Positions 320 to 54,834 of a stretch of 64,000 bases of DNA are shown here, in pieces. The first letter of the stretch is position 1. Every line of letters begins with the position of its first letter. Location of the stretch: assembly GCA_035635555.1 (NCBI GenBank), contig DASQAT010000003.1, forward strand, positions 1 to 64,000. The letters are read 5' to 3'. A program made the translations under genes and the position numbers. The stretch is from Candidatus Dormiibacterota bacterium. GTDB lineage: Bacteria > Acidobacteriota > Polarisedimenticolia > Gp22-AA2. The notes below the pieces were generated by a model. It was not told the origin of the DNA. It searched no databases and worked only from the letters and a program-made list of their open reading frames with translations.

Positions 320-586
320 ATGCGTCAAGGCTTCAAGGTGGCGGCCGGCACGGCCGCTATCCTGATCGTTCTCAGTGTCGTCCCGATCGTGACCTCGACC
401 CTGCAGAAAGGACGCTCGCCCTACCTGTCAGCGCTCTCCGATCTCGCCGCGGGGTCCGCTCTCGCGACGCCGACCTGCAATGACAAGACGTGCGCCAAGG
501 AGCCCGGCCGCGGGCCCGCCTGCGTGAAGGCCGGTCCCGGGGTCACCTGTCTTGTCAAAAGCGGCTGCTTCTCTTCGACCTGCTAG
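320..586 (+). CDS. Small secreted six-cysteine peptide, paralogue 1
   Basis: An 88-residue protein. The start is the ATG preceded by AAGGGAGGAACC; a longer in-frame reading adds 14 Arg-rich residues and has no ribosome site. Residues 1-28 form a basic head and hydrophobic segment. GRSPYLSALS follows, then an Ala-rich stretch ending ALAT. The rest holds six Cys: C-x4-C-x9-C-x8-C-x5-C-x4-C, with the last Cys at the C-terminus. I infer export and cleavage after the Ala-rich stretch, giving a peptide of about 40 residues with up to three disulfides. Twelve bases separate it from paralogue 2, so the two are probably one transcript. Function unknown; bacteriocin, signalling peptide or disulfide-rich surface peptide are all possible. 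Confidence 0.8.
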   Translation: MRQGFKVAAGTAAILIVLSVVPIVTSTLQKGRSPYLSALSDLAAGSALATPTCNDKTCAKEPGRGPACVKAGPGVTCLVKSGCFSSTC

Positions 587-598
587 GAGGAGGATCGA

Positions 599-871
599 AT
601 GACACGTTCGCTTCGGTTCGCGTTGCATTTGACACTCGTCGTGGCCGTCGTCGCGGCGCTGCAGATCGTCGCCGGCACGCCGCCCGGCGGCGGCTCGCCG
701 TACCTTTCGTCCCTGTCGACCCTCGGCCCGAGCACGGCCCTCGCCGCCCCCGGCTGCAACTCCAAGTACTGTGCCAAGGAGCCCGGTCGCAAGTCCCCGA
801 CCTGTCACCAGGCCCCCGTGAACTACAACTGCTCCGCCAGCGGGAACGTCTGCACGATCACCGCCTGCTGA
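599..871 (+). CDS. Small secreted six-cysteine peptide, paralogue 2
   Basis: A 90-residue protein with a very strong ribosome site (GGAGGAGG) directly after the stop of paralogue 1. A hydrophobic segment spans about residues 9-25, followed by GSPYLSSLS, then TALAAPGC at the presumed cleavage region. Cysteine spacing is C-x4-C-x10-C-x8-C-x6-C-x4-C, ending on Cys. The mature part shares CN-K-C-KEPGR with paralogue 1 and NCS-SG with paralogue 3, so the three look like tandem duplicates that have diverged. Role unknown; periplasmic or extracellular location is inferred from the leader. Confidence 0.8.
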   Translation: MTRSLRFALHLTLVVAVVAALQIVAGTPPGGGSPYLSSLSTLGPSTALAAPGCNSKYCAKEPGRKSPTCHQAPVNYNCSASGNVCTITAC

Positions 872-916
872 TCCTGTCATTCGGGCGGGCTGGGTTCGAT
901 CGCCGGAAGAACGGCG

Positions 917-945
917 TTGCGCGGGTGCGCCGCTCGTGGTACATG
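917..945 (+). promoter_or_regulatory. Putative promoter of the third cysteine-rich peptide gene
   Basis: TTGCGC, a 17-bp spacer, then TACATG, in the 121-bp gap between paralogues 2 and 3. Spacer and flanks resemble the promoter-like sequence at 252-280. The -10 match is modest, so an alternative sigma factor or another DNA-binding protein is possible. Confidence 0.45.
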
Positions 946-992
946 GAGTCCGCCCGACCCTTTCCTGGCGCGCTCTCAACGTGGAGGAGATG

Positions 993-1259
993 ATGACTCA
1001 ACGAACTCGTCGCATCACGGCCCGCATCCTGTTCATCGTGGCGGTCCTGGCCACGGCCCAGATCGTCAGCGGCGTCTCGTCGCCGATCCGTTCACCATAC
1101 CTGTCGGCGCTTTCCGGCATGGCGGTTCAATCGGCGCTCGCCGCTCCGGGATGCAACAACAAGACGTGCGAAAAGGATCCCCGCAAGGGCCCCACCTGCT
1201 TCAAGGCGACCGGATCCAACTGCTCGGTCAGCGGCGGCTGCACCTCTTCGGCCTGCTAG
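993..1259 (+). CDS. Small secreted six-cysteine peptide, paralogue 3
   Basis: An 88-residue protein. Two ATGs lie side by side; the second was chosen because GGAGGA then sits 5 bases upstream. It has an Arg-rich head, a hydrophobic segment (about residues 10-25), then IRSPYLSALS and QSALAAPGC. Cysteine spacing is C-x4-C-x9-C-x7-C-x5-C-x4-C. A perfect-stem terminator follows immediately, so it ends its transcript. Downstream lies the truncated tRNA-Leu repeat that marks the island boundary. Before that insertion this gene would have stood directly upstream of tRNA-Leu and paralogues 4 and 5. Confidence 0.8.
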   Translation: MTQRTRRITARILFIVAVLATAQIVSGVSSPIRSPYLSALSGMAVQSALAAPGCNNKTCEKDPRKGPTCFKATGSNCSVSGGCTSSAC

Positions 1260-1267
1260 GTCTTCGT

Positions 1268-1304
1268 GGCGGGGCCGGGCGGTCTTCCGGCCCCGCCTCT
1301 TCTC
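1268..1304 (+). terminator. Rho-independent terminator after peptide paralogue 3
   Basis: GGCGGGGCCGG and CCGGCCCCGCC form a perfect 11-bp stem around an 8-base loop, followed by a pyrimidine-rich TCTTCTCC tail. It starts 9 bases after the stop of paralogue 3. Confidence 0.8.
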
Positions 1305-1377
1305 CTCCACGCCCCCTTCCCGGCTCTTCCGATCCCTCCCCTGGCTCCTCCGGCGTTTTTTGGTAACGTACGACCCG

Positions 1378-1421
1378 GCGTGCCGAAGTGGCGGAATTGG
1401 CAGTCGCGCTAGATTCAGGGT
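1378..1421 (+). repeat. Left attachment repeat: truncated tRNA-Leu 5' half
   Basis: Carries the acceptor 5' strand (GCCGAAG), the D arm and the anticodon loop up to GATTCAGGGT, then diverges from the tRNA. The bases that follow cannot pair with the acceptor or anticodon strands, so this copy is not a working tRNA. Confidence 0.75.
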
Positions 1422-1491
1422 AGCGCCACTCCCCCGCAACCCGTTGACAGTCAGAGATTCCAGCGAAGCTGGTATCACCAACCGCGAGGAT

Positions 1492-2916
1492 GGGGATGTC
1501 CCGCTCTCCGTTGAAAGTCGACGGTGATCCTGGTTCACGTTTTACGCCACGCTGACTTTCTTGTCGAGAGCCTCGACGCCGACGGTGGCGTCCAGAGCCG
1601 CGAGCAGTTGCGGCATGTCCCGATAGCCCTTCACCCGACGGAACTTCTTCTCCGCTTCCATCAGGGCCGTCGCGACCCAGCGCAGCACCATCGACCCGTC
1701 CCGCCAGCGCTTCACGTTGCGGGTGACGCGCCGGATGGTTCCCTGCATGTTCTCGATCGGGTTGGTCGAGCGCAGAGTCTGATGCAGCGACCCGACGACT
1801 CCGAGAGCGATGACCGTGAGCGTCTCGTCGAGCCCTTCCTCGATGGAAGCCGAAGCGCCCGGATGATCCGCACGCAACTGCGTGGCCAGGGTCCGGAGCT
1901 GCTCCCGGGCTCGGCCCACCGTTGGCGCCGACCAGGCGCGGCGAATCCCGGCGCGCACCCATGCCTTCTGCCGCTCAGGCAGGTGTTCGAGCACGTTGCG
2001 CATCTTGTGGACCTGGCAGCGCTGGATCAGGGCCCAAGTTCCGAAGATGCTGCGGATCGCCTTGCGCACCCCCTTGCCACCATCGATCACGAACAGCCGG
2101 GCGCGTTCGACGACCAGACCGCGCCCGATGAGGTTCTGGAGCAGACTCTTGCCCACCTCCTCACTCTCGCTGCTGCCTTCAGCGACTCCCAGCACCTGCT
2201 TGCGCCCCGTCGCATCAATTCCCTGAGCGGTCAGCACCAGGTGCTTGTCGAGAACGACACCGTCGAGCTGCAGCACCGGGAAGTCGACACCTCCAAGAGA
2301 CCGGCTGAGGAACGCTTCCACCGCCCGCGCCGTGCGGGCCACGAACCGTCGCGACACGCTGGAGCGGCGCGTGCCCCTCTCGGGCAGCTCGATCGGCAGC
2401 GCCTCCAGGCTGTCGGCGTAGCCTCGCGTGCTTACCCCGAGCAGGATCTGCCGCTGCGCCCTCTCATCCAGCGGGTCCTCCTGGCCGAAGTGGCGCCAGT
2501 GCGGCAGCTCCAGTTCGCATCCGTCGACACTGCGTGCTCGCGGCTTCGCGATGCGTACCTTGCGGCCCCCGAGCACGAGCTCGCCCACATCGTGGCCGTG
2601 CCGGTAAGCCCGCCGGTCGGTCTGGACCTTCCCCTTGGGGCCGCAGAGCAGCGTGCGGTCCGCCTCGAAAGCTTTCCGCAACTCCTGCAGCCCAGCGGCG
2701 AGCAGGAAGTCGCGCAAGGCAAGCCGTGTGTCCAGGACGGACCTCCGAAGCAGCAGTTGGCTGCTCGAGGCCGGGGTCAAAGAGGGAAAGATGGGATCCG
2801 CGACAGGTGCTTTCGTGCGATGCTTCTCCATGACGGTGGTTCCTCCTTTTGGCAACCCAATGATGTCATTGGGCTGAGGACCACCGTCAACTTTCAACGC
2901 TCAGAGGGACAACCCC
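1492..2916. mobile_element. Complete IS256-family insertion sequence
   Basis: A 1425-bp element. Its 40-bp imperfect inverted ends (1492-1531 and 2877-2916) match at 33 positions and begin GGGG-TGTCCC. It is flanked by a perfect 8-bp target duplication, GCGAGGAT, at 1484-1491 and 2917-2924. IS256-family elements typically make 8-9 bp duplications. The single transposase gene is full length and uninterrupted, so the insertion is probably recent and possibly still active. Confidence 0.9.
1542..2831 (-). CDS. IS256-family (Mutator-type) transposase
   Basis: A 429-residue DDE transposase. The start is the ATG preceded by AAAGGAGGAACC; an upstream in-frame extension runs into the terminal inverted repeat and was rejected. 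The visible family landmarks are the first catalytic Asp in LQLDGVVLDKH, the second in LFVIDGGKG, the QRCQVHKMRNVLEHLP block typical of IS256, and the C-terminal TNPIEN...KRW region that carries the catalytic Glu. Length is normal for the family. It catalyses cut-and-paste or circle-mediated transposition of its own element. It is the only gene inside the inverted repeats. Confidence 0.93.
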   Translation of the reverse strand: MEKHRTKAPVADPIFPSLTPASSSQLLLRRSVLDTRLALRDFLLAAGLQELRKAFEADRTLLCGPKGKVQTDRRAYRHGHDVGELVLGGRKVRIAKPRARSVDGCELELPHWRHFGQEDPLDERAQRQILLGVSTRGYADSLEALPIELPERGTRRSSVSRRFVARTARAVEAFLSRSLGGVDFPVLQLDGVVLDKHLVLTAQGIDATGRKQVLGVAEGSSESEEVGKSLLQNLIGRGLVVERARLFVIDGGKGVRKAIRSIFGTWALIQRCQVHKMRNVLEHLPERQKAWVRAGIRRAWSAPTVGRAREQLRTLATQLRADHPGASASIEEGLDETLTVIALGVVGSLHQTLRSTNPIENMQGTIRRVTRNVKRWRDGSMVLRWVATALMEAEKKFRRVKGYRDMPQLLAALDATVGVEALDKKVSVA

Positions 2917-2940
2917 GCGAGGATCGCGCTATCCGTAGAT

Positions 2941-3006
2941 GTCTCCACCTGTTACCACTGAAACCCCACCTAACCCCGGAGCAATCCGTGGAGACTTGGT
3001 TGAGAC
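2941..3006. repeat. Island-end motif cluster (TGGAGAC), left side
   Basis: GTCTCCA (the inverted form) lies at 2941-2947, and CCGTGGAGACTTGGT at 2986-3000 continues to GAGAC at 3006. The latter recurs near the right end (5631-5651) with 20 of 21 bases identical. With the IS removed, the left cluster lies about 95 bp from the left attachment repeat. It may be a set of integrase arm-binding sites. Confidence 0.4.
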
Positions 3007-3024
3007 CAATTGCGAGGGAAAGTC

Positions 3025-3327
3025 TTATTCCCGGGCCCGCCGCTCGACCACTTCAGCCAGCAGCGTCTCTATGGCGGTGCGCACGGCTGCGGAGCAGCCC
3101 TTGAACCGGAGCAGCGGCAGAATCTGCATGTCGGCGGTTGCGATCAGGGCCCCCAACAATTCGTCGGTGAAAGAGTCGGTCACGGACTCGATGCCAGAGA
3201 AATCGAGGATGATCGGCTGATCACCCGCCTGCACGGCGCGCAGAATCTCGTCGCGGTAGTGCTTCGCGGTGTATCTACTGCCGAGGTACTTGGTCCCGCT
3301 GGTGCTGAACCGCAACGTGGCCATCAT
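3025..3327 (-). CDS. STAS-like domain protein (DUF4325 type)
   Basis: A 100-residue protein. The central block PIILDFSGIESVTDSFTDEL matches the hallmark of the DUF4325 STAS-like family, in which a DFxGI strand leads into a conserved Ser-Phe-x-Asp-Glu helix. These domains are small alpha/beta modules thought to act as regulatory partners, like anti-sigma antagonists. Its start overlaps the stop of the upstream ATPase-domain gene by one base (TGATG), so the two are translationally coupled. This suggests a kinase-like/STAS regulatory pair. The target is unknown. Confidence 0.7.
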   Translation of the reverse strand: MMATLRFSTSGTKYLGSRYTAKHYRDEILRAVQAGDQPIILDFSGIESVTDSFTDELLGALIATADMQILPLLRFKGCSAAVRTAIETLLAEVVERRARE

Positions 3328-4271
3328 CAGTCCTCGAACTGGGCGAGCCCCTCGGGGACAGGGCCCCGGAGGCTGCGCCTGATCTCTGAGATCACATCGC
3401 CAGCATTATCGAGCACGTTCGCAGACAGCCGGACCGTGAGAATGGTGCCGTTCCAGCGAGGCAGATTCTCGACCGTCTCGCCGCCCCGCTCGACGCGCAG
3501 GAGAGTGTCTCCGCTGAGGAGCATCAATTCTCCGCCGGTCCGGCGGCACACTTCCGAGATCATGTACAGACCCATTCCCGGGCGCGATCCACCGTACATC
3601 CCGACGTAAGGGGCGGTCGACGTCACGTTGCGCTGAATCGCCAGACGGAGCGCCTGCTCGTCCGAGGGCAGGTCAGCGTGCTCGGGGGATCGACGCAACG
3701 ATCTAAGCACGCCGACCCCCATGTCGGCGATCGAAGCCTGACACCACCGGCGCGGGGTGTGCGGAAACAGTTGAGCAGCGGCCACAGCACCGACAGGCGA
3801 CTCGGCGTGCTGAAATACGTTGTCCATGGCCTCTTGGAAGCAGTAGGCCAGCGCCGACGTAGTCCCGGGCACGTGATCTCCGAACGTCGTGGCCAATTCA
3901 GACGCGAGGTTCTCCACGACCCCAACCCCCGGCTCCCGAAGATGGTGGACGGGAAAGTAGATCCCGCTGCTCCCCCAACTGATCTGGCTGCCGGTATTCT
4001 GGGGCGTCGGATTGAAAAAATCCATTACGTCCAAGTACTTCTGCACGTCGGCGCTGCGGGGTCTCGTCAGCGTGAACCCTCGGCATGTGGCCTGTACCCG
4101 GTTCTTCCACGCCCACAAAGACACCAGGCCGACTGGATCGATAAAGGCAAGGTCCGTTAGGTCCAGGGTCACCTCCTCGGCCGGTGGCGGGACCGTCAGA
4201 TCCATTTGCCGAAGGCAGCCCGCAAGGCTGGTCCTGCACGAGAACTGTGCCGGGGGGCGGATGGTGATCAC
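3327..4271 (-). CDS. STAS-like plus HATPase (GHKL) regulatory protein
   Basis: About 314 residues. The N-terminal 100 residues look STAS-like (VTLDLTDLAFIDPVG, then a YLDVMDFF helix). The C-terminal half is a GHKL ATP-binding domain: N-box QEAMDNVFQHAES, G1 box IADMGVGV, G2-like GGSRPGMGLYMISEV. No His-phosphorylation domain is visible, so it resembles anti-sigma-type kinases more than a sensor kinase. The GTG start was chosen because the STAS-like fold begins there. A TTG-initiated reading reaches 4409 but is Arg-rich junk and runs into the divergent gene. The ribosome site is weak, so the start is uncertain. Coupled to the DUF4325 gene downstream. Confidence 0.65.
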   Translation of the reverse strand: MITIRPPAQFSCRTSLAGCLRQMDLTVPPPAEEVTLDLTDLAFIDPVGLVSLWAWKNRVQATCRGFTLTRPRSADVQKYLDVMDFFNPTPQNTGSQISWGSSGIYFPVHHLREPGVGVVENLASELATTFGDHVPGTTSALAYCFQEAMDNVFQHAESPVGAVAAAQLFPHTPRRWCQASIADMGVGVLRSLRRSPEHADLPSDEQALRLAIQRNVTSTAPYVGMYGGSRPGMGLYMISEVCRRTGGELMLLSGDTLLRVERGGETVENLPRWNGTILTVRLSANVLDNAGDVISEIRRSLRGPVPEGLAQFED

Positions 4272-4408
4272 GGTCCGGGATCGTATCACGTCACGACGAG
4301 CCCGAGAGGTGACCCGCTGGGTCTTGACGGACGTTCTCCGGCACCTGTAACCTGCTCGAACAGTCACACGCCCCGAGTGAACTCGTCCGTCCCGGGAGGT
4401 GCCAGTCA

Positions 4409-5119
4409 ATGCCCCTTGATGAGAGAAACGTGGTCTCCGAGCACGTACTGGAGATCCGATACCGCGCTTTCGGCGCGCTGCTCGATATTCGGGGGCGGAT
4501 CGCGGATGCGGTTGCAGCCAAAGGACAGATGTCTGTCTGGAGCATCACCGACAGCCGGGTCGACTTCAAGCCGACCGATGAGGACGAGCGGGAGATCGGA
4601 TTCGTCAGCCACCGAAATATCGGGTACGTGGTCCGGACACCCGACACACGGCAGTACATGCACGACCGCGCCATGCGCTTCATCCGCGACGTTTTCGCCG
4701 TGGACGGCTACAAGTTGCCCGATGTGGTCCGATTCGGGTTCCGATCCCAGATCCTGTTCCCGACTCGTGACTCGTTCGCGGGGCTGCTGAAGAAAACGAG
4801 CGAGAGGATGCCGCAGCCAAAGCAACTGACCGAGGTGTTCGACGCGCAGATCGAGGACTACGGTCAAATCGTCGTCCTCAAGCGGGGGGAAACTCACATC
4901 AGGGTCCGAGGTGGTCCCATGCAGAGCGCACAGGCGAAGACGGAAACCTCGCTCGGGGCCCAGAAGGATCGGATTCCCGAGGTTGGATTCTTCCTGGATC
5001 TGGACCACTGGCGCACGAATCCGGGTCCGATGGATGAGCGGAAGATCAGCGCGCTGCTCCAGCAGTCGAACGACTCCGCGTGGAAGGCGGCGTCCGCCTA
5101 TCACGACATCCTGATCTGA
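4409..5119 (+). CDS. Hypothetical protein resembling the TIGR04255 family
   Basis: A 236-residue soluble protein with a good ribosome site (GGGAGGT, 9 bases upstream). The C-terminal segment FFLDLDHWRTNP...MDERKISALLQQSNDSAWKA resembles the end of TIGR04255, a sporadically distributed family of unknown function found in accessory regions; the match is from memory and tentative. It has no membrane segment or recognisable catalytic motif. It is divergent from the HATPase gene and is followed two bases later by a small membrane protein, so the latter two are probably co-expressed. A role in defence or element maintenance is possible but unproven. Confidence 0.5.
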   Translation: MPLDERNVVSEHVLEIRYRAFGALLDIRGRIADAVAAKGQMSVWSITDSRVDFKPTDEDEREIGFVSHRNIGYVVRTPDTRQYMHDRAMRFIRDVFAVDGYKLPDVVRFGFRSQILFPTRDSFAGLLKKTSERMPQPKQLTEVFDAQIEDYGQIVVLKRGETHIRVRGGPMQSAQAKTETSLGAQKDRIPEVGFFLDLDHWRTNPGPMDERKISALLQQSNDSAWKAASAYHDILI

Positions 5120-5121
5120 CA

Positions 5122-5502
5122 ATGGCCCGCCGCAACCGTCAGAAAGGGGCCATCCTCTCAACGACACCGTCCGCAGGCGAGACCGACCTTCAAGAGGCTC
5201 CGGAGACTACTGCGCTTGCGGTGCGCAGCAGCGCCGGCCCGCTGGACGCTGGAACCCAATTCACGCCAGCCACCGAGACGGCTGTTACAAACGCCGGGAA
5301 GGAATCGGTCGGGCGAACCGCCTATGATCTGTTGTATCCCTTCACCTCGAACCCCCGGTACCTCTACCTACTGATCCCTCTCGTCGTGGGCCTCGGCTTC
5401 GGCACGACGGGTCACCTGACGACGTGGATCGATGGTGCAGCCGCAGGCGGCGTAACCCTCCTTTGCTGGATCGTGCTGTTCTTGGTACAGTGGAAGAGGT
5501 AG
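5122..5502 (+). CDS. Small membrane protein of the island
   Basis: A 126-residue protein whose ATG lies two bases after the previous stop, with the preceding gene providing coupling. Residues 1-75 are polar, rich in Thr, Ala and Glu, and look disordered. Two hydrophobic segments follow: YLYLLIPLVVGLGFG and VTLLCWIVLFLVQW, with a basic end (KR). This gives a cytoplasmic tail with a two-helix hairpin. I do not recognise a family. A soluble partner plus a small two-helix membrane protein is an arrangement seen in some abortive-infection systems, but nothing here proves that. Confidence 0.5.
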   Translation: MARRNRQKGAILSTTPSAGETDLQEAPETTALAVRSSAGPLDAGTQFTPATETAVTNAGKESVGRTAYDLLYPFTSNPRYLYLLIPLVVGLGFGTTGHLTTWIDGAAAGGVTLLCWIVLFLVQWKR

Positions 5503-5630
5503 GGCGGGCCCGGTTGCGCATACCGGAGCCGCCCTGATCGGTTGCGCGGACCGGCACGGCCAACTGTTCGACGCGGGATACAACGTGCCCCGGCACTCGC
5601 GGGAGCGCATCTCTCTCGACCGGAATCCGC

Positions 5631-5654
5631 CCGTGGAGACTTGGTGGAGACTTC
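5631..5654. repeat. Island-end motif cluster (TGGAGACTT), right side
   Basis: TGGAGACTT occurs twice (5633-5641, 5646-5654), separated by four bases, about 47 bp before the right attachment repeat. The longer CCGTGGAGACTTGGT matches the left-side cluster exactly. It is a candidate arm-type recombinase site. Confidence 0.4.
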
Positions 5655-5700
5655 TGGGTTGGTACTGGCGTGCCGCCGCCCGTAAGTGGTAGAGTTTTCA

Positions 5701-5744
5701 GCGTGCCGAAGTGGCGGAATTGGCAGACGCGCTAGATTCAGGGT
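5701..5744 (+). repeat. Right attachment repeat inside the intact tRNA-Leu
   Basis: This is the second copy of the 44-bp repeat, with one mismatch to the left copy in the D-arm region. It supplies the 5' half of the functional tRNA. TAGAGT at 5690-5695 could be the -10 element brought in by the island to keep the tRNA expressed. Confidence 0.7.
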
Positions 5745-5791
5745 CTAGTGGCCTCCGGGCCGTGCAGGTTCAAGTCCTGTCTTCGGCACCA
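5705..5791 (+). tRNA. tRNA-Leu, anticodon CAG
   Basis: 87 nt including an encoded CCA. The acceptor stem GCCGAAG pairs with CTTCGGC, the discriminator is A, and the anticodon stem CTAGA/TCTAG encloses loop TTCAGGG with anticodon CAG. It has a long variable arm, as expected for a class II tRNA, and the T loop is TTCAAGT. It reads CUG, a preferred leucine codon in a GC-rich genome. Paralogue 4 of the peptide family starts 48 bases downstream with no terminator between, so they may share a transcript. Confidence 0.95.
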
Positions 5792-5838
5792 ATAATTTTC
5801 GCTTTGCGGGCGGGCATTCCCGGAAGGAGGTTCGTCTC

Positions 5839-6108
5839 ATGAGGATCAGCATCAAGTATGCCCTACGCTGTCTCGTCGTGGTCGTGGCGGTGGGACTGAT
5901 CCTGTCTTTCCTCGGCACGCCGGCGCCGACGCGCACGCCGTATCTCTCCGCCTTGTCGAGTGTCGCCGTCGGTCAGGTGTACGCCGCCGCCTACTGCAAC
6001 AACAAGGCCTGCGTCGGCGGGTCGCGCTACAACATCTCCTGCGGCAACGTCGACAACTATCACTGCGCGAAGTACGGCCGCGGTCTCTGCTCGAACAATC
6101 CCTGCTGA
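5839..6108 (+). CDS. Small secreted six-cysteine peptide, paralogue 4
   Basis: An 89-residue protein with an excellent ribosome site (GGAAGGAGGTTCG). A hydrophobic segment runs over about residues 9-25, then TRTPYLSALS, then VYAAAYC at the presumed cleavage region. Cysteine spacing is C-x4-C-x9-C-x7-C-x7-C-x4-C. The CNNKAC start matches paralogue 3 (CNNKTC), on the opposite side of the island. The mature part is rich in Asn, Gly and Tyr. It lies directly after tRNA-Leu and two bases before the ribosome site of paralogue 5. Confidence 0.8.
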   Translation: MRISIKYALRCLVVVVAVGLILSFLGTPAPTRTPYLSALSSVAVGQVYAAAYCNNKACVGGSRYNISCGNVDNYHCAKYGRGLCSNNPC

Positions 6109-6118
6109 GGTGACGCAG

Positions 6119-6388
6119 ATGCGAAGCAGCTCCCGTTTCGTCCTGAGAGTCGCCGCTCTCGCGGTCGTCGTCGCATTCGTGGCGGTCGCGTCGCAGTCGG
6201 TGCCGGCGAACGATCGCTCCCCTTACGCTTCAGCTCTCGCGAGCCTGACCGCGGGACAGGTCGCCCTGGCCGCGTCGAGGTGCAGCAACAGGACCTGCGA
6301 CGCGACCGGTACCCGCTGCGTCCATCTGAACGGCTCGCGCACGGACTGCGGGGTCGGGGACTTCTGCCGTACGCGCGCCTGCCTGTAG
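6119..6388 (+). CDS. Small secreted six-cysteine peptide, paralogue 5
   Basis: An 89-residue protein. The GAGGTGA ribosome site overlaps the stop of paralogue 4, so the pair is an operon; a longer in-frame reading overlaps paralogue 4 and was rejected. The leader has a basic head and hydrophobic segment, then DRSPYASALASL and QVALAASRC. Cysteine spacing is C-x4-C-x6-C-x9-C-x5-C-x4-C, with one extra Leu after the last Cys. This is the most divergent copy (PYAS instead of PYLS), yet it keeps all six cysteines. Confidence 0.78.
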   Translation: MRSSSRFVLRVAALAVVVAFVAVASQSVPANDRSPYASALASLTAGQVALAASRCSNRTCDATGTRCVHLNGSRTDCGVGDFCRTRACL

Positions 6389-6487
6389 TCTGCCGGGGCT
6401 TTGGGGGATTTGCCCTCCCCTGATTCAGCACCTCACGGATTGCCGTCCGATCCGCTCCGGGGCATGCTGCTTCCGAAGGAGGTCGTC

Positions 6488-6661
6488 ATGACTCTGGCCT
6501 ACGACGTGACAGTGGCCGATCATGTTCACCGGATTCGCATCGAAGTGCCTCACGGGTACGACCGGCGGCAGCTCGTGCATTTCCAGAAGTTCGCAATCTC
6601 GACGGCTCTTCTGGAGCACCTCGGCTATCTCCCGCGGGATGTCGTCAACGGGATCGCCTGA
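6488..6661 (+). CDS. Hypothetical 57-residue protein
   Basis: ATG preceded by GAAGGAGGTCGTC, a strong ribosome site that decides the start. Soluble, no Cys, no signal peptide, with mixed beta/alpha character (VTVADHVHRIRIEVP, then a helix FQKFAISTALLEHLG). I do not recognise a family. It lies 100 bases after peptide paralogue 5 on the same strand and could be co-transcribed. It converges with the glycosyltransferase gene five bases away. Confidence 0.55.
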   Translation: MTLAYDVTVADHVHRIRIEVPHGYDRRQLVHFQKFAISTALLEHLGYLPRDVVNGIA

Positions 6662-6665
6662 CCGT

Positions 6666-7778
6666 CTAACGCGGGACTCTGCCGCCCCCGATGAGGCGCA
6701 GGAGCCGTTCACGCACGCGCGGGCCAGGGGCAAGACGGCGTCGCTGGCGACGCACGTGGTTCTCGAGCGGCGCCGACAGGAACCGGAGATAGTCCGAGAC
6801 CGCCCGTGCCTCCGAAGCGGGTGGTTCGGGCGCGCCGTCCCGGTACTCTTCCAGGATCTCCCGGTAGAGCTCGAGGATCTCGTCCATGAGATCCTCGTGT
6901 CCGGCCTTCGCGCGAACGCGGCGCGACACCTCGGCGGCATCGGCGGCGTCGTAGGCCCCAACGCGCTCCGCGAGGATGTCCGGATCGATCCGGTCCCGCA
7001 GCGCCCTCACGCCGAAATTCAGAGGGCGGAGGTGCTCGAGATTCCGGGTCGTCACCAGAGGCCCGGCGCCTACCGCGTCGCACAGGATGACCGCCGCCCC
7101 GACCGACAGGGCCTCGATCGCCGACCGTCCCTTGGCGAACACGATGTCGGCCCGGCGGATCGCCGCTTCGGGCCGGTCGCTCTCCGATCCCGCCGCCCGG
7201 CCGACGATCTGGAGTTCGAGTCCTGTTCGCGCGCAGGCCTCGCGCACCGCGCCGAGGTAGGTGCGCTCCGAGGCGTTGTTGCTCAGGACCAGCGCCCGTC
7301 GCGGTCGATCGGGGAGCGGGCCGCGCGCCGCGAAGCGCTCGAGATCGACCGCATTGAGCAGAACGCGGATCGTCTCCTCCGGAATGCCGTGCTCGAACAG
7401 CAGACGGTCGCGGCAGGTCCAGTCGACCGCGACGTATCGCAGGATGCGCGGGAAGCGTGGCGGCGCCTCCTCCCAGGGGAGCCAGCCGTGGCAGACGAAC
7501 ACCGCCGGGACGCGCGGGAAGCGCAGCAGCGCGGTCATCGCCTCCAGGTGATGCTGGCCGTGGATCAGGTCGGGCGGAGCGCCGAGCAGGCCCAGATCGT
7601 CGATCACCGGCACCGTCGCGGCGCGCAGCTCGGCGGCCATGTCCCCCAGACGCGTGCTGTAGGCGATAGGCGTGTGGCCGCGCCGCACGAGCCCCACCGC
7701 CAGGTCGCGCACGTACGTCTCCGACCCGCCGCGGGCGGCCAGGCTATGATTCGTGATGAGGATTCGCAGGCCCGCCAT
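6666..7778 (-). CDS. Glycosyltransferase, GT4-like
   Basis: 370 residues. The N-terminus MAGLRILITNHSLAARGGSE followed by TYVRDLAVGLVRRGH is the classic first half of a GT-B, family 4-like enzyme, where a Gly-Gly-Ser/Ala-Glu turn follows the first strand. The second half has GRSAIEALSVGAAVILCD, a variant of the nucleotide-sugar-binding E-x7-E region. It probably transfers a sugar from a nucleotide donor to a surface glycan or lipid at the cytoplasmic face. The long upstream in-frame extension is Arg/Pro-rich and overlaps the neighbour, so the internal ATG was chosen. It overlaps the PIG-L-like gene stop by one base (TGATG), implying coupled expression. Confidence 0.8.
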   Translation of the reverse strand: MAGLRILITNHSLAARGGSETYVRDLAVGLVRRGHTPIAYSTRLGDMAAELRAATVPVIDDLGLLGAPPDLIHGQHHLEAMTALLRFPRVPAVFVCHGWLPWEEAPPRFPRILRYVAVDWTCRDRLLFEHGIPEETIRVLLNAVDLERFAARGPLPDRPRRALVLSNNASERTYLGAVREACARTGLELQIVGRAAGSESDRPEAAIRRADIVFAKGRSAIEALSVGAAVILCDAVGAGPLVTTRNLEHLRPLNFGVRALRDRIDPDILAERVGAYDAADAAEVSRRVRAKAGHEDLMDEILELYREILEEYRDGAPEPPASEARAVSDYLRFLSAPLENHVRRQRRRLAPGPRVRERLLRLIGGGRVPR

Positions 7779-8563
7779 CACCCTTCCGCTGCGATCCGGG
7801 CGCGCAGGGCCGCTGCGATCGGGACGATGTGCTGACGGTACCTCAGGACGCGGTCGTAGTGCCCGGCGGCGACCTGCCTCTCTCCGTGGGTCTCGTAGAA
7901 CGGCGGATCGTCGATCAGGCCGTCGAGATCGAGGGCGTACTCCACCGGGCGCAGGCACTCGACGCGAAACGCCTCCTGCGGGTGATCCCGCAACGCGGCG
8001 TCCACTTCCCCCGTGAGCGCGGTGTAGGCGCGGGCGGCCCGCATCTTGCGCGCCAAGGCATCATCGTCGAGCCGGAGCGTCAGCGCCCGCGGGAGCAGCG
8101 ACTCGCCACAGGGCCCCGGAGGTCCATCGAGCGGAAAATCGAAATTGCGCGGTGCGGCACCGGTGCGGCGGCGAACCAGCTCGACGGCGGCGTTGATCAG
8201 GAGCCGACACAGGTCGTGGGTGGGATTGAATCCTTCGACGGCGTCGCCGGCCACGCAGTCGATCCTGTCCTCCTCCAGCGCCGCCGCCAGCTCCTCGACC
8301 AGGGCGATCCAGCGATGGAACTCTCCCTCCAGGATGGCCGCGTAGGCCTGCGCGTCGGTGAGACGTCCGTAGATCGGACCCGCGACGCCGCCCGCCGCTT
8401 CGAGAAGCGCGGTCGTGAAGGCGAGGCGCGAGGCTCCCGAGCGTCCCGAGCCATCGGTGAGGACGAACAGCCGGGGCCGCGCGGCGCACAGGAGGCCGTG
8501 CACGCGCAGCTCGTGACCCGGATGGGCGACGACAATCGCCGTGCGCGACGATGGAAAATGCAT
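7778..8563 (-). CDS. PIG-L/LmbE-like protein (divergent deacetylase family)
   Basis: 261 residues. The N-terminal strand and loop TAIVVAHPGHELRVHG matches the PIG-L/LmbE position AHPDDE, which binds zinc. Here the loop reads AHPGHE, so the metal site differs from the canonical one. Downstream, FNPTHDLCRLLIN may supply another His/Asp ligand. PIG-L enzymes remove acetyl groups from N-acetylglucosamine-type sugars. The translationally coupled glycosyltransferase supports a role in making or editing a glycoconjugate. An upstream extension is Arg/Pro-rich and rejected. Activity is uncertain because of the altered motif. Confidence 0.6.
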   Translation of the reverse strand: MHFPSSRTAIVVAHPGHELRVHGLLCAARPRLFVLTDGSGRSGASRLAFTTALLEAAGGVAGPIYGRLTDAQAYAAILEGEFHRWIALVEELAAALEEDRIDCVAGDAVEGFNPTHDLCRLLINAAVELVRRRTGAAPRNFDFPLDGPPGPCGESLLPRALTLRLDDDALARKMRAARAYTALTGEVDAALRDHPQEAFRVECLRPVEYALDLDGLIDDPPFYETHGERQVAAGHYDRVLRYRQHIVPIAAALRARIAAEG

Positions 8564-8619
8564 CCGGATAGTGCCCCCACCCAGGAGGATCCAGCGGGCG
8601 GCAGAATAGCACAGGCGTC

Positions 8620-8877
8620 CTAGGACGCGCCTTGAAGGGTCTTCCTCACCTCTCCCGAGATCGTCGCGTCCCGGTCCACGAAGGCCTTGATCCTCTCCAG
8701 GTCGTCGAGGCGCGTGGCCCCCACGATGCGGTCGATCGCGGCGTGGCCGCGCCACTCGCAGTCGTCGATGATGTGCTTCCCCTGGGACTCGCAGTTGCGG
8801 CACTTCCGGGAGCCCCATTGCGGGTCCCAGCACGGACAGGTGGCGTGGGCGATATCGAGCTCGCGTTGCACGGTCAT
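8620..8877 (-). CDS. Small Cys-rich hypothetical protein, possible zinc site
   Basis: 85 residues. The ATG is preceded by GTGGAGGTGCGC; a GTG four codons upstream overlaps that ribosome site and was rejected. Near the N-terminus HATCPCW and, ten residues on, CRNC form a C-x-C-x10-C-x2-C set, with a further HIIDDCEW; this could hold a zinc ion. The second half is a helical segment without Cys. There is no signal peptide, so it is probably cytoplasmic. Divergent from peptide paralogue 6. I do not recognise the family. Confidence 0.5.
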   Translation of the reverse strand: MTVQRELDIAHATCPCWDPQWGSRKCRNCESQGKHIIDDCEWRGHAAIDRIVGATRLDDLERIKAFVDRDATISGEVRKTLQGAS

Positions 8878-8970
8878 GCGCACCTCCACTCGGAATGGAT
8901 GACAGCCCGCCTATTGTGTCTCATCGGGGTTCCCCGCGGGCCGAGATTCGATCCCGCCGCTCCTCCTGCC

Positions 8971-8999
8971 TTGCGCCGGCTCTCCGTTCGATGATAGAG
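8971..8999 (+). promoter_or_regulatory. Putative promoter of peptide paralogue 6
   Basis: TTGCGC, 17 bp, ATAGAG. The -35 hexamer is the same as that upstream of paralogue 3. A transcript starting about 9006 would have a 100-base leader before the peptide start. The -10 match is weak. Confidence 0.3.
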
Positions 9000-9105
9000 A
9001 TGGGCGCGCGTTCGCCGAGGCGTTTCGCCTGCGGCGACGCCACCCTCCCCGGCGCGCCCCCGGCCCGCGGCGGGGGAGGTCCCGGGGCCGGCTTGGAGAA
9101 TGCGC

Positions 9106-9360
9106 ATGAAACGTCCGATGAGGTTCGTCCTGTGTTTCGCCGCCGCCGTGACGGTCGTCGCCCTGCTGCACATCCTGGTCCCGTCGTCTATGCCCGCGGA
9201 CTCGCCCTACCTATCGGCGCTCTCCAGTCTGCAGTCGTCGACGCAGGCCGCCACCCACTGCGCCGACAAGACGTGCGCCTCGGTGGGAGGCGGATGCGTT
9301 CGGTCGGCGGGCAGCTTCTGCGCCAAGTCCGGTGGTCAGTGCTTCACGCGGGGCTGCTGA
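9106..9360 (+). CDS. Small secreted six-cysteine peptide, paralogue 6
   Basis: 84 residues from the second of two close ATGs; GGAGA lies 6 bases upstream of it but abuts the first. A basic head and hydrophobic segment are followed by ADSPYLSALSSL and TQAATHC. Mature cysteine spacing is C-x4-C-x6-C-x7-C-x6-C-x4-C, ending on Cys. CADKTC resembles CNDKTC of paralogue 1. A seventh Cys lies in the hydrophobic leader and would be removed by cleavage. This copy is isolated, 2.7 kb from paralogue 5. A PF13769-type gene follows 43 bases later on the same strand. Confidence 0.78.
   Translation: MKRPMRFVLCFAAAVTVVALLHILVPSSMPADSPYLSALSSLQSSTQAATHCADKTCASVGGGCVRSAGSFCAKSGGQCFTRGC

Positions 9361-54391: not shown

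Positions 54392-54834
<443 letters not shown>

Follow-up and report, generated by a model that had tools for sequence, protein, structure and literature searches.

The window analyzed in this work is a stretch of 64,000 nucleotides from the forward strand of contig DASQAT010000003.1 (assembly GCA_035635555.1, Candidatus Dormiibacterota bacterium), and our analysis concerns six genes near its 5′ end that encode small proteins with six cysteines in a common pattern, together with the wider family to which they belong. An earlier reading of the bare sequence, hereafter the original prediction, had proposed these genes as a family of secreted six-cysteine peptides. All six open reading frames (ORF) are present where it had placed them, on the forward strand: gene 1 (320..586, 88 aa), gene 2 (599..871, 90 aa), gene 3 (993..1259, 88 aa, read from an in-frame start inside ORF 936-1259), gene 4 (5839..6108, 89 aa), gene 5 (6119..6388, 89 aa) and gene 6 (9106..9360, 84 aa, with an alternative start at 9100). 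Their products match the family profile with E-values of 5e-35, 9e-36, 2e-35, 5e-34, 6e-28 and 4e-30, respectively.

The search that the original prediction had suggested, with a profile of the six proteins, retrieves 19 members from the genome to which the window belongs (G000, 4.28 Mb), comprising the six window genes on contig C3 and 13 additional members on eight other contigs (E 2e-24 to 2e-7). A further 41 members (4, 11, 8 and 18) come from four related genomes placed in the same taxonomic family, the genome of the same genus that is 100% complete (G001) encoding four of them. Since the profile finds 13 more instances in G000 and 41 in related genomes, the cysteine pattern is not a chance occurrence, and the grouping of the six genes as a real, conserved family is borne out. 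Three further genomes of the same taxonomic family, including a 92% complete member of the genus (G003), yield no member in the profile search, and no match is found elsewhere among approximately 390 sampled Acidobacteriota, including 41 genomes of the class. In public records, a narrow subfamily scan identifies carriers labeled 'Acidobacteria bacterium isolate gp22 AA3' and 'CR_Sed_300A_bin.1'. The family hence appears to be lineage-private, confined to an understudied branch of Acidobacteria from soil and sediment.

Alignment of the six window proteins reveals 12 invariant columns, corresponding to Met1, the fixed residues of the leader motif P-Y-x-S-x-L, an Ala that precedes the mature part, and the six cysteines. 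The spacing originally put forward, C-x4-C-x(6-10)-C-x(7-9)-C-x(5-7)-C-x4-C, fits all six proteins, which contain no CxxC pairs. Spacing is wider across the 54 members with six cysteines: two to four residues separate C1 from C2 (four in 48 of the 54), with 4-10 between C2 and C3, 7-9 between C3 and C4, 3-13 between C4 and C5, 4-5 between C5 and C6, and a tail of 0-2 residues after the last Cys. The most conserved feature other than the cysteines is the leader motif PYxSALS, which lies 18-20 residues ahead of C1 (as measured from PY in 50 of the 54), and the P, the Y and one Leu of PYxSAL are, with the six cysteines, the only residues invariant across 50 aligned members. In the window, this motif reads SPYLSALS in genes 1 (416..439), 3 (1092..1115) and 6 (9202..9225), SPYLSSLS in gene 2 (695..718), TPYLSALS in gene 4 (5935..5958) and SPYASALA in gene 5 (6218..6241), all on the forward strand.

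Across 58 sequences, the N-terminal region carries a net charge of +1 to +5, a hydrophobic stretch begins around residue 11, PY is located at residue 34 (median) and an AxA-type site at residue 49, with Ala at position -1 in 49 of 57 sequences and at position -3 in 46 of 57. The part following this site averages 39 residues, with a net charge of +2.6 and 15% Cys, and has a high content of Cys, Gly, Ser and Thr. On the basis of the AxA-type sites, the predicted mature peptides of the window span 467..583 (gene 1, after ALA and before T), 746..868 (gene 2, after ALA and before A), 1143..1256 (gene 3, after ALA and before A), 5986..6105 (gene 4, after VYA and before A), 6272..6385 (gene 5, after ALA and before A) and 9250..9357 (gene 6, after TQA and before A), again on the forward strand. 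The charged N-terminal region, the hydrophobic helix and the AxA-type site are those of a Sec signal peptide and, combined with six cysteines in about 39 residues, support the notion of small, secreted, disulfide-rich peptides. The helix and the AxA-type site are separated by about 23 residues, a gap long for an ordinary signal peptide, and this makes the cleavage site uncertain and leads us to read PYxSALS as a probable shared recognition segment. We regard it as very probable that the precursor of all members follows one plan and consists of a charged N-terminus, a hydrophobic helix, a linker, PYxSALS, an AxA-type site in most members and a six-Cys mature part. A lipoprotein assignment was rejected, given that no lipobox leads up to the first mature Cys of the window members: C1 is preceded by G, T, G, Y, R and H in the six, and none has L at position -3. 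AlphaFold2 returns a four-strand model for the mature stretch of gene 3, with a pLDDT of 81 in the best model and of 47-59 in the other four, and a poor model for a second subfamily.

The proposal that the peptides fall in no named family also stands. When 50 members were scanned singly against Pfam-A, NCBIfam and PHROGs, no profile scored above its curated cut-off and no family was matched by more than one member, the best E-value (0.004) corresponding to an unrelated model; the best PDB matches have E-values of 5.2 in a profile search and of 3.7 in a Foldseek search using the weak model. Plasmid records, phage records and viral contigs contain no match to the family, and there is thus no sign of phage or plasmid origin. 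The open-access literature yielded no described equivalent of the peptide family or of the structured leader RNA reported below. Families of secreted disulfide-rich peptides that share a conserved leader have been described before, but the bacterial family reported here matches none of them.

Several known systems provide terms of comparison. The CS-alpha-beta defensin signature combines C-x3-C with C-x-C, a combination present in none of the 54 six-Cys members, and that assignment was rejected as well; there is also no profile or fold match. Knottins (inhibitor cystine knots) likewise pack six cysteines into about 35-40 residues, and their generic loop-length ranges accommodate 26 of the 54 members; they also figure among the weak, non-significant fold matches, but the C3-C4 loop (7-9 residues) of the present family lies at or above their usual range and there is no sequence match. 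As secreted six-Cys bacterial peptides, the family members resemble the bacterial defensins, as exemplified by actinomycesin (PMC8819291). A parallel outside bacteria is found in the CRP-I family of Mytilus mussels, animal cysteine-rich peptides whose mature part is reported to be under positive selection (PMC10138031). Both families are cationic, retain six conserved cysteines with variable spacing and a conserved leader or propeptide region, and are lineage-restricted, with many paralogues and presence/absence variation. Unlike CRP-I, the family analyzed here features a structured RNA leader, and its orthologous mature parts are subject to purifying selection and in many cases vary less than the leader.

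This last difference bears on the evolutionary claim of the original prediction, which had read the variability of loops and residues as diversifying evolution. Many members fall in cross-genome orthologue groups with conserved neighbors, as established by synteny and reciprocal best hits; in the window, genes 5 and 6 each have their reciprocal best hit on contig C93 of G004. Of 24 cross-genome orthologue comparisons, 22 show a mature part that equals or exceeds the leader in conservation. With the exception of one short pair, mature dN is always lower than dS, the ratios being rough for such short sequences. The clearest orthologue group keeps CPN[ND]SCGGKKGCR[AS]DHGFYC across two genera while its leader is only 41-53% identical. 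The claim of diversifying evolution is therefore unsupported; orthologous mature parts are under purifying selection, and diversity lies between old paralogues.

A ligand whose receptor does not change would be expected to show orthologues conserved across genera under purifying selection, and the peptides could accordingly be construed as intercellular signals or developmental cues rather than weapons, each paralogue being a distinct ligand sensed by kin cells. The dedicated RNA control proposed below would suit regulated release, and a PAS-domain hybrid histidine kinase adjoins the member on contig C28; among 20 flanking proteins of G000 members, however, no receptor or kinase is consistently adjacent. 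Moreover, 19 parallel six-Cys signals per genome would be unusual, and presence is patchy between sister species. We consider this explanation unlikely.

The family genes stand alone and are scattered over the genome, and their neighbors are unrelated. The 20 flanking proteins include a histidine kinase, a peptidase M28, a mannosyltransferase, aminotransferases, MFS and ABC proteins and a cytochrome, and they reveal no common partner gene. A classical bacteriocin or ribosomally synthesized and post-translationally modified peptide would have a linked immunity, transporter or modification gene; no such function is shared by the 20 proteins, and the peptide genes occupy separate sites. Reciprocal best hits in G001, whose genome is complete, are limited to 2 of the 19 G000 members. 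At one site, between tRNA-Val and tRNA-Ala, the upstream gene and both tRNAs are kept in G001, G003, G005 and G006, and the peptide gene is absent from all four. This patchy presence, the size of the family, the invariance of PYxSALS and the RNA element were not part of the original prediction.

The same distribution weighs on the possibility that the peptides are parts of the envelope or matrix, or metal-handling components, acting as small cross-linked proteins with a structural or redox function at the cell surface. Their high Cys, Gly, Ser and Thr content, the conserved export leader, the absence of a linked immunity gene and the location of one orthologue group next to a cytochrome c554-type gene are all compatible with such a role. 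The family is, however, absent from the 92% complete sister genome and its members are missing at intact sites, from which it follows that they do not form a core structure; in addition, the window members lack CxxC pairs and little sequence is common to the family beyond the cysteines. A structural or metal-handling role hence seems improbable.

Three sequences may represent decaying members. Of L059 (G005:C60) and L055 (G006:C235:2737-2991), one is devoid of two of the cysteines and the other is out of frame past the fifth Cys, assembly error remaining a possible cause, and a weak leader-to-mid match with an internal TAG in G000 (C35:48587-48781, E 0.017) is a possible family pseudogene.

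About a third of the family members bear a structured 5′ untranslated region (UTR), composed of a hairpin P1, a hairpin P2 and a pseudoknot; none of the six window genes carries this element. P1 is the palindrome GCCGGYGGYRCCRCCGGC, which lies some 80 nt upstream of the start codon and recurs just past the stop codon in many members. G000 harbors six exact copies of GCCGGYGGYRCCRCCGGC, each adjoining a family gene, against one copy of a reversed-pattern control; when up to two mismatches are allowed, the palindrome occurs upstream of 14 of 58 members and downstream of 13 of 58. Matches without a family gene, at G001:C55, G005:C45 and G006:C44, revealed no missed member at those loci. P2 sits between the palindrome and the start codon, relative to which the positions of the element are fixed, and its loop, mostly CUCGGC, can pair with a GCCGAG located directly ahead of the Shine-Dalgarno sequence. 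Loop and partner vary in a compensatory manner, as seen in the pairs UCCGGCUC/GAGCCGGA, CGGCCC/GGGCCG, CCGGCG/CGCCGG, UCGGCC/GGCCGA and CUCGAC/GUCGAG.

Pairing was assessed with a swap test, in which the downstream strand is exchanged among UTRs and an ungapped helix is considered on position-fixed segments. The pseudoknot is strongly favored over swaps on all 57 UTRs (Z 4.2, p < 5e-5) and with one UTR per orthologue group (Z 4.5), with Z-scores of -0.3 to 1.5 in six equally sized control gene sets, and it remains so on 14 UTRs selected by P1 alone (p 0.002). For P2, the test yields p 0.0003 on 17 UTRs selected for the pseudoknot. A looser RNAduplex test that preceded it, with swaps across broad stretches of the UTRs, gave no significant result (p 0.12). 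On 16 UTRs, both P1 and the pseudoknot helix are recovered by RNAalifold, and 85% of cells are paired in the consensus structure versus 34-45% when it is slid, its covariation being reached in 0 of 500 shuffles; since the structure was partly chosen on the same rows, the swap tests on the 57 UTRs and on the P1-selected 14 are cleaner than the shuffle test. A covariance model searched against ten genomes returns 17 matches with E < 0.01, all ending at family start codons and one of them (G004:C467) outside the seed. Another non-seed member is detected at E 0.024, and the weak matches checked (E 0.02-0.15) seem to lie within coding regions.

Pseudoknotted 5′ leaders are already known, the H-type pseudoknot translational riboswitches among them. 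As in those riboswitches, the element combines a structured UTR with a conserved pseudoknot that ends just before the Shine-Dalgarno sequence, an arrangement suited to translational control. Unlike known pseudoknotted leaders, it precedes a single peptide family in the ten genomes and matches no Rfam family: no Rfam 15 model exceeds its gathering score at element-bearing 5′ UTRs, and six element-bearing loci return just a tRNA and a sub-threshold PYLIS_3 (E up to 1). Compensatory variation and fixed placement make it likely that the element is a dedicated cis-regulatory RNA of the family. More tentatively, and with a confidence well short of even, we propose that the dispersed peptide genes may be co-controlled by a translational RNA switch class of their own, so that one intracellular signal would set which peptides are made.

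The palindromes also admit a different interpretation, in which the genes spread as small mobile cassettes, with end palindromes and tRNA neighborhood marking integration and the peptide as cargo. In ten members, P1 upstream is matched by its near reverse complement 13-41 nt past the stop codon (e.g. L074:5847, L075:5998, L069:6778), and relatives contain empty sites. Closeness to tRNA genes is unusually frequent: at 4 of approximately 15 separate G000 sites (C3:5839, C46:146385, C46:177887 and C56:38411), and also at G001:C13, G006:C199 and G006:C3, a tRNA gene is found no more than 200 bp from the family gene; with 43 tRNA genes in 4.28 Mb, about 0.07 would be expected in G000 under uniform placement, and perhaps ten times more when counting intergenic space only. 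Yet the upstream palindrome belongs to a covarying UTR and keeps a constant distance to the start codon, the downstream copy is embedded in longer, terminator-like G+C stems, and several members are syntenic with their orthologues, which renders spread as cassettes very improbable. The palindrome centers read GGTGCC upstream and GGCACC downstream in nine members, with a double change (GGCGCC/GGCGCC) in L051. The downstream palindrome may act as a terminator or a kissing partner, or may mark the end of a repeat; long-range pairing between the 5′ and 3′ palindromes is weakly favored over swaps (p 0.04, n=10), and we claim no such pairing.

Taken as a whole, the data are best explained by a lineage-private family of effector peptides that are exported, disulfide-stabilized and mostly cationic, with translational control shared by some of them, an explanation to which we assign an even chance. 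The hydrophobic helix would direct Sec export; PYxSALS and the AxA-type site would serve as a shared recognition and cleavage signal, with cleavage near AxA; and the six cysteines would oxidize to three disulfides in the periplasm or outside the cell. In about a third of the genes, formation of the pseudoknot beside the Shine-Dalgarno sequence would control ribosome access, resulting in shared translational control. Positive charge, lineage restriction, patchy presence and the large number of paralogues point to intermicrobial effectors as the most likely role, at somewhat less than even confidence, with the secreted peptides directed against or towards other microbes and each paralogue possibly retained for a target of its own. 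Several observations weigh against this explanation: purifying selection is more in keeping with a conserved target than with an arms race, the 20 flanking proteins reveal no linked gene for immunity, transport or modification such as a classical bacteriocin would have, the gap between helix and AxA-type site is long, the RNA element is present in only about a third of the members, and the AlphaFold2 model is weakly supported, so that the fold is not used for any inference.

Acidobacteriota are abundant in soil and their interactions with neighbors are poorly understood, and the family offers ready candidates for antimicrobial, signaling or binding scaffolds. The invariance of PYxSALS predicts a shared processing factor. 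It would be unusual for a structured RNA leader to serve one peptide family exclusively, and the ligand or protein of such a leader would indicate when the peptides are made.

Within the window, gene 2 starts 12 nt past gene 1 and has an AGGAGGA Shine-Dalgarno sequence, gene 5 starts 10 nt past gene 4, and gene 4 lies 47 nt downstream of a tRNA-Leu(CAG) gene (5705..5791, forward strand; ARAGORN and Rfam). The proximity of genes 4 and 5 to the tRNA, and of gene 2 to gene 1, suggests co-transcription of genes 4-5 with tRNA-Leu and of genes 1-2. Direct reading of the sequence identifies a terminator-like G+C hairpin, GCGGGGCCGG...CCGGCCCCGC, 3′ of gene 3 (1269..1296, forward strand). The 5′ half of tRNA-Leu(CAG) is duplicated almost exactly over 44 bp (1378-1421 and 5701-5744), and an insertion of about 4.3 kb between the duplicates divides the peptide genes, with three before and two after it. 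The cargo of this insertion includes a Mutator-family transposase (1545-2897, reverse strand), and two STAS-like proteins, one with DUF4325 and the other only weakly similar, and no integrase was recognized among its genes. Elsewhere in the window, a class A RNase P RNA is encoded at 54393-54829 on the reverse strand (Rfam, 259 bits).

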